Shown here one piece after another: positions 25,448-31,521 of a stretch of DNA of 64,000 bases. The stretch is from an uncultured Lachnospiraceae bacterium (GTDB lineage: Bacteria > Bacillota > Clostridia > Lachnospirales > Lachnospiraceae), in contig CANQVT010000001.1 in the NCBI GenBank assembly GCA_947627365.1, positions 115,353-179,352 on the forward strand, given 5' to 3'. Within the stretch, counting starts at the first letter, position 1, and the number at the start of each line of letters is the position of its first letter. The notes under the pieces were generated by a model. The model was not told the DNA's origin, did no database searches, and worked only from the letters and a program-made list of their open reading frames with translations. A program made the position numbers and the translations under genes.

Positions 25448-26284
25448 ATGGGACTGATGTTTAAGAAAAATCTTTATCGCGCAGGCAGCGGAAAACGCCT
25501 GACCGGAATGGCACGCTATACCGAGGTGCTGGAGCGTGATTTCAAAAAGCTGTTTCTGGCAAATTTAGTGACTCTGGTCTGCTTCCTCCCCTTTGCCGCC
25601 GGAGTAGTTTTCTCCATTCTCACATCCAGCGTCCTGGTGTTGATCCCCACCTGCATCGTCGGCGGACTGATCGCAGGCCCGGCGCTCTCCTGCATGTATG
25701 ATTCCATCTTCCGCGGGCTGCGCGACGCCTCTGGCAAATGGTGGGACAACTATCGTCACGCATGGAAACAGAACTGGCGGCAAGCGCTCCTTCCAGGCGT
25801 CGTCTTTTGCCTGATGCTCGGATTCTATGCGTTCATGGTGATGCTGTTCTGGTGGGCCACACGCTTCCCCGGCTGGGGCACCATCGCAATCTTCCTGTTC
25901 AGCCTGCTGCTCTTCACCACTTTTTTCGAAATCTACTGGCCGCAGGTCGCTCTGTTCGACCAGTCCGCCATAGCAGGCGCGCGAAATTGCCTGCTGTTTG
26001 TGCTGCGCTTCCCACTCAAATCACTCGGCACAGCGCTGCTGCAGCTTCTCTACTGGACAGTCTATATTCTGTTTTTCCCGTGGTCGCTCTTTCTGCTGCC
26101 GCTGATCGGTTTCTGGTTCATCCTGTACACGGCAAGCTTCCTGCTCTACAATACCTTCGAGCAGAGCTTCCAGCTCGAAGAGCAAATTGCGGAGGCTTTC
26201 CCGGAACAAGCTCCGTACTATGAAGACGACGAGACGTGGCTAAAGCGCAAGCAGGCGGAATCACGTGTTCACAAAGACGACTAG
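25448..26284 (+). CDS. DUF624 (YesL-like) membrane protein
   Basis: Multi-TM; FKKLFLANLVTLVCFLPF...PTCIVGGLIAGPALSCMYDSIFRGLRD typical of DUF624; start Met at 25448. Confidence 0.75.
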   Translation: MGLMFKKNLYRAGSGKRLTGMARYTEVLERDFKKLFLANLVTLVCFLPFAAGVVFSILTSSVLVLIPTCIVGGLIAGPALSCMYDSIFRGLRDASGKWWDNYRHAWKQNWRQALLPGVVFCLMLGFYAFMVMLFWWATRFPGWGTIAIFLFSLLLFTTFFEIYWPQVALFDQSAIAGARNCLLFVLRFPLKSLGTALLQLLYWTVYILFFPWSLFLLPLIGFWFILYTASFLLYNTFEQSFQLEEQIAEAFPEQAPYYEDDETWLKRKQAESRVHKDD

Positions 26285-26307
26285 GGAAAGTCCATTCTTT
26301 CATAAAT

Positions 26308-26640
26308 TCAACGCAGATCATCCGGAATCGTCTCCTCTATCGGCTGCAATAACTCAGCAAGGTCGTATTGCCGCCCTATATTTGTGGAGTCCATTTTCCT
26401 GACACAGTTTTTGATCCACGGAAATTTCTGTTTTAAGTCACCTAACAGATCGTAAATATCAGCATTTGTCATTTTTACATTCGAGGTATATCCGGAACCC
26501 TGACGATGTGAGAAGTTCTGATATGCGAAAAAACGACGTAAGTCCTCATACGCCAAACGATAATTTGACCCAGGATAATATTCCTGTAGTTGATGTGTGT
26601 CGAGATCAAAATTAATTGCCTTATAATATCTTCTTTCCAA
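26308..26640 (-). CDS. VapD-like (Cas2-related) endoribonuclease family protein; TTG start
   Basis: KAINFDLDTHQLQEYYPGSNYRLAYEDLRRFFAYQNFSHRQGSGYTSN...LKQKFPWIKNCVRKM follows the VapD consensus. Confidence 0.75.
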   Translation of the reverse strand: MERRYYKAINFDLDTHQLQEYYPGSNYRLAYEDLRRFFAYQNFSHRQGSGYTSNVKMTNADIYDLLGDLKQKFPWIKNCVRKMDSTNIGRQYDLAELLQPIEETIPDDLR

Positions 26641-26643
26641 ATA

Positions 26644-26982
26644 TTACACTCCTGCCATCTGCTTTTCCCGGTAATGTTTCAACAGATCCTCCTCATCGAA
26701 ATCGTTCGGGTCTTCAGAATCATCATTGCTGCACAAAAGCCAGACTGATACATTATCCATAAACCATGGCTGCTTTTTCAGAAAATTTACAATAACCCCG
26801 AAATACGCAAAATCAACCGGTCTGTCCGCACCGCAGTAGACAAGCGTTCTATTCGATTCAGGCAACTTCGTAAGCCCCCTTTTCATGAATAGTTTGTCAA
26901 TCGTGCTATAGATACTCTCTAACGGATACCTTTTTTCGATATTTATCTTATCGTCATTCATGCGGATAACCATCTTCATCAT
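26644..26982 (-). CDS. Uncharacterised 112-aa protein, translationally linked to the VapD-like gene (candidate antitoxin/partner)
   Basis: AGGAGG RBS; stop codon lies 3 nt upstream of the VapD-like start; acidic C-terminus. Confidence 0.65.
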   Translation of the reverse strand: MMKMVIRMNDDKINIEKRYPLESIYSTIDKLFMKRGLTKLPESNRTLVYCGADRPVDFAYFGVIVNFLKKQPWFMDNVSVWLLCSNDDSEDPNDFDEEDLLKHYREKQMAGV

Positions 26983-27135
26983 TATGGAAAATCCTCCTAC
27001 TGCAATATTGCATAAATACCTGCTCCCTTTTCAGTCTGCGCATAAACATCATATCATGCATTGGTTCCGGCGTCAACTTATAATTTGTGAATATAATATT
27101 TTTTAAGTGATATATTTGGTTTTAAGTAACTTCTA

Positions 27136-27170
27136 AAAACGGCAGGCCATACGGCCTGCCGCAATTTTTT
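27136..27170. terminator. Bidirectional intrinsic terminator
   Basis: GGCAGGCC-ATAC-GGCCTGCC hairpin flanked by A-rich and T6 tracts. Confidence 0.75.
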
Positions 27171-27180
27171 GTCTCAAAGC

Positions 27181-28812
27181 TTACGATGCCTCCGGCATCG
27201 CCGCCTGACTCTCCGACGTCTCAGGATCACCTGCGTTATTCGGCTGCGTCATCTGCGCAACGAGAGCCGCGATCTGGTTGATTAATTCATCCGGCACACC
27301 AGCTTTCTTGCAGTTCTCCATGATCGCCTCCAAGTGAAGATCCGCGGCGTACGTCTCCATCTCCTCCTGGCTGTCCGCCCGGTACACTGTTCCCTCGCCG
27401 GCGCCGCTGCCAGTCAACAGTTCCTCGTCCTGTCCCGACTTCAGGTAAAGAGTCGCAATCGGCTCATCATTCATCGTCAGACTCACGGAGAGATTGTTGA
27501 TTTTCTCTTTCGCCCTCTCCTCCACGTCAAAAATCAGCGCGAAGTCCTCAAGCGGCATCGACCCCTGCGAATCGTCCGTCTCCCCCACGTAGGTCAGCTT
27601 ATAGGTGCCGTCCAGGTCGCTCGGCTCGGCATTCACATCGTAATCGCTCACCTCGATCTTGCACTGAAGGAGACCGTTCTGTGTCACCATGTACTCGCCG
27701 TTCAGCCTGCCGTCCGTGATCGTGCCGACGCCCGAGAGGACACCGCTTTCCCCGCTCTGTCCATCGCCCGCAGCATAGTACATGCGCAGCGCCGCCTGAT
27801 CGTCTTCCAGGACATTGAGCCAGGCAATCTGAGCCTCCGTCTCTCCATCCGAGACGACTGAGAATTCCCGGCCCGCGCACTTGCCGTCCGCATCCAGCCA
27901 TACCTTCGCGGAAATGTAGTTGTCCTCGCCGTACTCTCCGGCCCCCGCAATCTCGTCCTCCAGATTGCTGATCGCCTCATCCATCGCCTGCTGATATTCC
28001 TCGTAAATATTCTCCTGCTGGGAGAACGTCCCAAGGTTCTCAATCATCTCCTTTAGCTGCTCGTCGTCCCTCGCCTGCTTCGCCATCTCCAGCACGACAG
28101 AGTACACATCGTCCGCGTAGAGACGTCCCTCCTCCACCGTGAAAGTCTGTTCGAGGTTCGCCAGTGTCTCCGTCTTCTCCTCGGAGGATGCGTCCGTCAT
28201 TTTGTCAAACAGAATATCCCCATAACGCTTCAAAAGCTCTGCCACCTCGTCGCCGTCCGCCGCGAGCTCTGCCAGAAACTCCGGATTCATCACTTCCTTC
28301 AGGCGCTGCCACTGCTGCCTCGCCTCCTCCGTCTCAAACTCAAACGGAGCCCCGATATAGTTCTCGCTGATCTCCGGCACCCGGAATTTGACCGCATCGT
28401 TCCCGAGATCGATCGGCAGCTCCAGCGTGGCCAGCACCGTGTCGTTCAGGCACAGACCGATCACCGCATTGATCACATTGCTCTCCTCACTGCCAACCGC
28501 GGCCTTGAGCCCGATGCTCTCAAGCCAGGAAAAATCCATCGCTTCTCCGTCCGACGTCGCGAGAATACTGCCAAGCATCGTGCGCACGAGATCCCCGAAC
28601 TCAAGCTTGAGCTCCCCGGAGGAAATCTCACTCTCCTGAGATTCTGCCATCGCCTCATCCCACAGCCCTCCGTAGAGATCGGCGAACGCCGCCCAGTTCC
28701 CACGCTCCGTGTCGACATAAGCCGCCGAGGCCGTAAGCGGGCCAAACCCCGCAAGCGCAAGCGAACCAGCCGCAAGTACCGCCGTAACCTTCTTTCTAAA
28801 CCCTGTTCTCAT
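27181..28812 (-). CDS. Secreted protein of unknown function
   Basis: Signal peptide MRTGFRKKVTAVLAAGSLALAGFGPLTASA; no recognised domain. Confidence 0.7.
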   Translation of the reverse strand: MRTGFRKKVTAVLAAGSLALAGFGPLTASAAYVDTERGNWAAFADLYGGLWDEAMAESQESEISSGELKLEFGDLVRTMLGSILATSDGEAMDFSWLESIGLKAAVGSEESNVINAVIGLCLNDTVLATLELPIDLGNDAVKFRVPEISENYIGAPFEFETEEARQQWQRLKEVMNPEFLAELAADGDEVAELLKRYGDILFDKMTDASSEEKTETLANLEQTFTVEEGRLYADDVYSVVLEMAKQARDDEQLKEMIENLGTFSQQENIYEEYQQAMDEAISNLEDEIAGAGEYGEDNYISAKVWLDADGKCAGREFSVVSDGETEAQIAWLNVLEDDQAALRMYYAAGDGQSGESGVLSGVGTITDGRLNGEYMVTQNGLLQCKIEVSDYDVNAEPSDLDGTYKLTYVGETDDSQGSMPLEDFALIFDVEERAKEKINNLSVSLTMNDEPIATLYLKSGQDEELLTGSGAGEGTVYRADSQEEMETYAADLHLEAIMENCKKAGVPDELINQIAALVAQMTQPNNAGDPETSESQAAMPEAS

Positions 28813-30157: not shown

Positions 30158-30580
30158 CTATTTCATCAGCTTTTGGATCGTGCCGCAGAGCTCATCCACG
30201 GCCTCGTGATTGCCCTCACGGATATCGTCGACGACGCAGGTCTTGATATGGTTCGACAGCAGAGCCTTGTTGAAGCTGTTCAGCGCGGACTGCACCGCCA
30301 TCACCTGTGTCAGAATGTCCACGCAGTAGCGCTCCTCCTCCACCATGCCCTGTATACCTCGAATCTGTCCTTCTATGCGTTTCAGACGGTTCATCAGGTT
30401 CCGGTACTCTTCGTTCTCGCGGTGCTTCATCCTGCAGCCGCATTCTGAGATCATATTCTCCGCCGGCTGCTCCTCCGCCTTCTTTTCTTCCGCCACTTTT
30501 TCTTCTATTCTTTTTTCCTGCATCTTTCGCTCCCCGCAATCCTCTCCGCAACCGCTGCTTCCTGTCTCCGGCATTTGCAC
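30158..30580 (-). CDS. CsoR/FrmR-family (DUF156) metal-sensing repressor
   Basis: NLMNRLKRIEGQIRGIQGMVEEERYCVDILTQ...ALNSFNKALLSNHIKTCV; true start may be an internal Met (MKHREN or MISECG). Confidence 0.85.
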   Translation of the reverse strand: MQMPETGSSGCGEDCGERKMQEKRIEEKVAEEKKAEEQPAENMISECGCRMKHRENEEYRNLMNRLKRIEGQIRGIQGMVEEERYCVDILTQVMAVQSALNSFNKALLSNHIKTCVVDDIREGNHEAVDELCGTIQKLMK

Positions 30581-30615: not shown

Positions 30616-31521
30616 TTAGCGAGAGCCCGCCAGTGTCTCTTCTTTAAGGATTCCCTTTTCTGCAAGGATCTTCCTTACAGTCTCTTTTGCCATGGAAAGC
30701 TTCTCGGCAATGGCCTCGACAGAAAGATGCATTTCCGTGTAATATACTTCAACCTTTCCTATTGCCTCACCGCGTGCTTTTCCGCGCGCCTCACCGCGTG
30801 CTTCAGCTTCTTCACAGTGCACCTCAAGATCGGTCTCATAATCGTATTCAGCCATCATCATATTGATAACCTCCTTGCCTTTTCGCCCGAGATAATCTGC
30901 AAGGATGTCTTCTTTGATACATTCCTTTACGGCTCTCTCAAGCTTGCTTTTGTCTCCGCCAAACTGCCGCGTCTTCTTAACAAATTCGCTGTACTGACGA
31001 AGTGTGCCACATTTCTCTAGAAGCTCATGCTTTTTATCCGTGTTGATGTTGACTACTCGGACCTCCAGTTCCAGCTTTCCGTTTGGTCCGCATCGTTCCG
31101 CGAACGCATCTGAAAGCCTCAACACCTGTTCCTCAGGCTGGTCTTCCTCTCCATTATATAAGACAAGAAAGGACGGCGCCATCAGCTGATACTGCAACTC
31201 TGAATACCTGGCCTTTACCGGTATCAGCTTTTCATACTCGCGCGCAATGTACATCAGCATGCGCACTGGCATATTCGGGTTGATTGTACTTTGATGTTCG
31301 CTCAAAATAATTCTTCGATCTCCAACCGAAAATGCCACATCATTCTTCATATTCTTAAACAGAACATCTTCCAGTCGTACTTTCCTGATCAGAGAAGTAT
31401 CTTGCAAGCTTGTATCAAAAAGCCCGTTGTACAGCTCCAGCAGATTTTTCTCCGCAGTTTCATCTAAATAGTAAAGATCACAAAATACACTATCCTTATA
31501 TTCTCTATTCTCTTTTGCCAT
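30616..31521 (-). CDS. Rpn-family recombination-promoting nuclease / PD-(D/E)XK putative transposase
   Basis: KDSVFCDLYY..., NDVAFSVGDRRIILSEHQSTINPNMPVRMLMYIAREYEKL; ARGEARGKARGEAIGK C-terminal motif. Confidence 0.8.
   Translation of the reverse strand: MAKENREYKDSVFCDLYYLDETAEKNLLELYNGLFDTSLQDTSLIRKVRLEDVLFKNMKNDVAFSVGDRRIILSEHQSTINPNMPVRMLMYIAREYEKLIPVKARYSELQYQLMAPSFLVLYNGEEDQPEEQVLRLSDAFAERCGPNGKLELEVRVVNINTDKKHELLEKCGTLRQYSEFVKKTRQFGGDKSKLERAVKECIKEDILADYLGRKGKEVINMMMAEYDYETDLEVHCEEAEARGEARGKARGEAIGKVEVYYTEMHLSVEAIAEKLSMAKETVRKILAEKGILKEETLAGSR

Follow-up and report, generated by a model that had tools for sequence, protein, structure and literature searches.

We find that two adjacent genes on the minus strand of the window (the whole stretch of 64,000 nt of DNA from an uncultured Lachnospiraceae bacterium that was analyzed) very probably form a chromosomal type II toxin–antitoxin (TA) module of the VapWD family with a mechanism as in its homologs, and we put the probability of this reading at about 0.92. 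The pair is a published type of TA system and not a new kind: VapWD was first described in 2025, and in that description VapW is a catalytically dead paralog of VapD that neutralizes it (Gilep et al., mBio; PMC11980593). Our analysis establishes membership of the family, the predicted folds, the loss of the catalytic Asp in one protein and its retention in the other, and the conserved pairing and order of the two genes.

The upstream gene, vapW (26644–26982, minus strand), encodes a protein of 112 aa from an ATG start with an AGGAGG motif ~8 nt before it, and the downstream gene, vapD (26308–26640, minus strand), encodes a protein of 110 aa that starts with TTG and keeps the catalytic residues D12 and S49. 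The gap between the vapW stop codon and this TTG, read from the sequence, is exactly 3 nt. The two minus-strand ORFs, the AGGAGG motif, the gap, and the TTG start are present as given in a preliminary description of the locus, and the AT-richer pocket that it placed here is seen in the GC profile of the window, where GC content is ~0.40 over 26250–27250 versus ~0.55–0.60 on either side. A predicted sigma-70 promoter, TTGACG-17-TATGAT (27048–27076, minus strand), lies upstream of vapW with a TG before its −10 box; the call is a consensus match only, at 10 of 12 positions. A short, possible palindrome spans its −35 box. The vapWD unit is bounded upstream by a terminator-like hairpin that belongs to the preceding gene (27140–27161, minus strand), which was found on the plus strand and has a symmetrical 9-bp stem, with GTTTTTAG coming next on the minus strand.

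The 110-aa protein matches the NCBIfam model NF041506 (e value 6.6e-31, over the curated cut-off), and its nearest solved structure is VapD from C. jejuni (9KAN chain A, phmmer e value 1e-17). The same chain, 9kan_A, is matched in a Foldseek search (e value 7e-9) with the AF2 model of the window protein (pLDDT 90.7), and the two proteins are ~36% identical over the fold alignment, bearing out the earlier assignment of a VapD-like, Cas2-fold protein. D12 and S49 of the window VapD align with the catalytic D11 and S46, respectively, of the C. jejuni protein, and both are invariant in 45 of 45 sequences.

The 112-aa partner looks uncharacterized at first because Pfam, NCBIfam, PHROGs, and PADLOC give no meaningful match to it, and its relatives are likewise covered by no model in Pfam or NCBIfam. 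A phmmer comparison with PDB sequences, however, returned a single entry, chain B of 9KAN, which is the VapW antitoxin (e value 2.6e-4), and a profile built from 53 VapW sequences found 9kan_B as its sole significant match in PDB (e value 1.9e-13). The AF2 model of the protein (pLDDT 89.1) has the element order beta1-alpha1'-alpha1-beta2-beta3-alpha2-alpha2'-beta4, then beta5-alpha3, the same order as in the published VapW (PMC11980593), and predicts a ferredoxin fold like that of VapD, plus an extra helix at the C terminus. Foldseek with this model ranks chains B and D of 9KAN first (TM 0.75–0.76), with VapD from H. influenzae also among the matches (TMt 0.74), and identity between the window VapW and C. 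jejuni VapW is ~22% over the fold alignment. A homolog on a Campylobacter fetus plasmid, encoded directly upstream of an annotated vapD, is 33% identical to the window VapW and matches C. jejuni VapW (9KAN) at 8.6e-26; at the level of sequence, this homolog is a bridge from the window VapW to an experimentally tested VapWD system. No homologs of the window VapW were found among 50,697 phage records at an e value of 0.01.

With the VapW profile aligned to the 3ui3 VapD, the site of the VapD catalytic Asp falls on Arg7 of the window VapW (codon at 26962–26964, minus strand); across the family, 43 of the 53 VapW sequences have Lys or Arg at this site and none has Asp. The counterpart of the VapD catalytic Ser is either Thr46 or Leu47 of the window VapW. 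Beyond 9kan_B, the VapW profile matches four VapD chains in register at e values of 0.16–0.34 and, among proteins encoded in the genomes, some VapDs at 5e-4 to 1e-2, matches that are weak on their own and consistent with the published paralogy. Because a direct profile–profile comparison of VapW and VapD, although in register, is weak (e value 0.076), the case for paralogy rests on the fold and on the published work (PMC11980593).

We scanned a genome collection for VapW and identified 59 VapW loci, most of them in Lachnospiraceae. VapD is encoded directly downstream on the same strand at 44 of the 56 loci with enough downstream sequence; judged by profile coverage, it is near full length at 39 loci and a fragment at seven, the others having no detectable VapD or reaching a contig end. 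One of the 39 near-full-length copies (L077) sits in a frameshifted gene. Among 397 genomes of the family, VapD is present in 24, VapW in 15, and both in 12 (Fisher p 4e-14), and nearly all the other VapDs of these genomes have immediately upstream of them a diverged VapW that a profile search detects. At the exception (L123), frames resembling a frameshifted and very diverged VapW could be read by eye. Another very diverged VapW-like gene, again read by eye, is located upstream of vapD and beside a replication-initiator-like gene (L022). The nearest relatives of the window pair have 56–58% identity in VapW and 61–66% in VapD and mostly share the spacing of 3–4 nt and the TTG start. With dozens of genomes carrying the pair, the arrangement is more than chance. 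A lack of conserved pairing was among the outcomes that the preliminary description named as refuting its proposal, and the pairing is conserved.

Protein distances of VapW and VapD are strongly correlated (r = 0.94), and none of 5,000 permutations reaches this value. A dN/dS of ~0.07 for both genes, which is a rough estimate given that synonymous sites are near saturation, indicates purifying selection. Sixteen loci with a full VapW have a missing or truncated VapD, and the reverse case, a broken VapW beside an intact VapD, was seen once at most (L125). This one-sided decay is partly ascertainment, since a VapW-first search favors intact VapW. Truncated or remnant VapD beside full-length VapW at L061, L076, L054, L075, L082, L092, and L097 suggests that the toxin was lost and the antitoxin retained there. 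Some VapW genes have no neighboring VapD, and one locus (L008:1114–2458) has three tandem VapW genes with no VapD nearby, the third of which is fused to a TnpV domain (PF14198, e value 1.1e-24).

In the 39 intact pairs, VapW starts with ATG in 37 and VapD with a non-ATG codon (TTG or GTG) in 22, and most loci of the branch nearest to the window have a TTG 3–4 nt past the VapW stop codon. The earlier proposal that the non-ATG start of the toxin gene would favor an excess of the upstream partner is therefore consistent with a conserved feature.

Five congeners keep the upstream gene of 543 aa (61–72% identical) with no vapWD after it, and one of them (L141) has a similar hairpin behind its ortholog of that gene, where vapWD is absent. 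Upstream of the vapW promoter region, relatives differ in sequence from locus to locus; at the place of the window promoter they have TATAAT-type boxes, many of them inside a conserved GATTGTAGAA ... TATAAT block. In many loci (L043–L059), a block of GATTGTAGAA, a spacer, and TGNTATAAT precedes vapW while the DNA further upstream differs; this block is possibly a regulatory element, and the window has TTGACG-17-TATGAT instead. Some related loci are near relaxase, TnpV, or replication-initiator-like genes (the last identified by eye) and some are on plasmids. From its placement, the vapWD module looks like a mobile unit. Elsewhere in the window, an ORF at 30616–31521 (minus strand) has a weak match, below cut-off, to the YhgA-like putative transposase model (PF04754, e value 0.0016), and its product is perhaps an Rpn-type protein; the ORF at 30158–30580 (minus strand) encodes a metal-sensitive transcriptional repressor (PF02583, e value 3e-32).

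Three other explanations of the pair can be weighed against this evidence. The partner could belong to a novel antitoxin family that is unrelated to VapW and paired with VapD, as the preliminary description supposed when it proposed a TA module with a new antitoxin. Its two-gene TA arrangement stands; the new and uncharacterized partner does not, as the protein falls in the VapW family published in 2025. The silence of Pfam, NCBIfam, PHROGs, and PADLOC about the 112-aa protein would suit a novel family, yet VapW of 9KAN is the protein singled out by sequence and by fold alike (profile e value and TM score as above), and the C. fetus intermediate links the window partner to VapW, leaving this explanation hardly credible.

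That the two proteins form a two-subunit regulator or enzyme, with VapD as a housekeeping nuclease that its upstream neighbor modulates rather than a toxin with its antidote, would agree with the fold class common to both. This is nonetheless very improbable: the distribution of VapD is patchy (24 of 397 genomes), VapD is often lost or broken where VapW stays, vapWD is missing from the same site in congeners, and homologous pairs have been tested and behave as TA systems (PMC11980593). Several related loci with broken VapD genes raise the further idea that the window holds a decayed or unexpressed TA remnant, but here both genes are full length, with the start, ribosome site, promoter-like sequence, and VapD catalytic residues intact, and the family dN/dS is that of a constrained pair, so that we consider a remnant scarcely plausible.

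For the VapWD reading, the pairs from C. jejuni and S. equi supply the experimental precedent: their VapD is toxic, VapW rescues the cells, the two proteins co-purify, and SOS is induced (PMC11980593). By homology we expect toxicity, rescue, binding, and SOS induction to carry over to the window pair. VapD would be a dimeric Cas2-fold nuclease with Asp12 and Ser49 in the active cleft. VapW, a duplicated VapD without the catalytic Asp, would be made first, from the strong start, and would cover the VapD surface through which dimers stack into hexamers, holding VapD inactive; were the level of VapW to fall, free VapD would halt growth, probably through cleavage of nucleic acid that leads to an SOS response. 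The module may serve maintenance of the region or defense.

In the 9KAN crystal structure, VapW sits on the hexamer-forming surface of VapD and leaves the cleft open, and R57 and R61 of VapD grip an acidic patch of VapW (PMC11980593). The equivalents of these arginines are A60 and D64 in the window VapD, and the two positions are rarely basic in relatives, being mostly Ala/Leu and Asp, so that the exact VapW–VapD contacts in the window pair probably differ from those in 9KAN; the arginine grip is a structural detail of a single member and does not define the family. Acidic C-terminal residues of VapW are kept all the same (E98 in 48 of 53 sequences and D99 in 49 of 53). Because this acidic part is strongly conserved while the matching VapD arginines are absent, we propose, as a speculation that is more likely wrong than right, that in this large branch from gut Firmicutes VapW neutralizes VapD via a rewired interface, maybe on another VapD surface and possibly as a nucleic-acid mimic. 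Lachnospiraceae and other gut Firmicutes thus have scattered VapWD systems, whose VapW goes without a name in the family libraries searched, and this diverged pair offers a test case for a dead toxin copy that acts as an antidote.

Among known systems, Cas2 shares its fold superfamily with VapD, but the top match of the window toxin is VapD and not Cas2, and no cas1 was recognized among the neighboring ORFs that were read. The VapXD system of Haemophilus influenzae has a VapD toxin of the same fold as the window VapD, and its antitoxin VapX folds into a beta-barrel and blocks the toxin by plugging the active cleft (PMC11980593). We rejected VapX as the identity of the window partner, in agreement with the preliminary description, since the model is alpha/beta and ferredoxin-like with VapW as its best match. 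In VapYD of Muribaculum, a VapD toxin is encoded beside a protein antitoxin as in the window, and VapY has an SH3-like fold (PMC11980593); this identity was also rejected because the ferredoxin-like model is without such a fold. The VapWD systems of C. jejuni and S. equi share with the window pair the antitoxin–toxin order, the lost Asp of VapW, and, for each protein, the sequence profile and the predicted fold, and tandem copies such as those reported for VapWD (PMC11980593) occur in relatives of the window pair (L008, L033, and L039). The window branch differs from these systems in the replacement of the C. jejuni interface arginines of VapD and in a toxin gene that starts with TTG 3 nt past the antitoxin stop codon.
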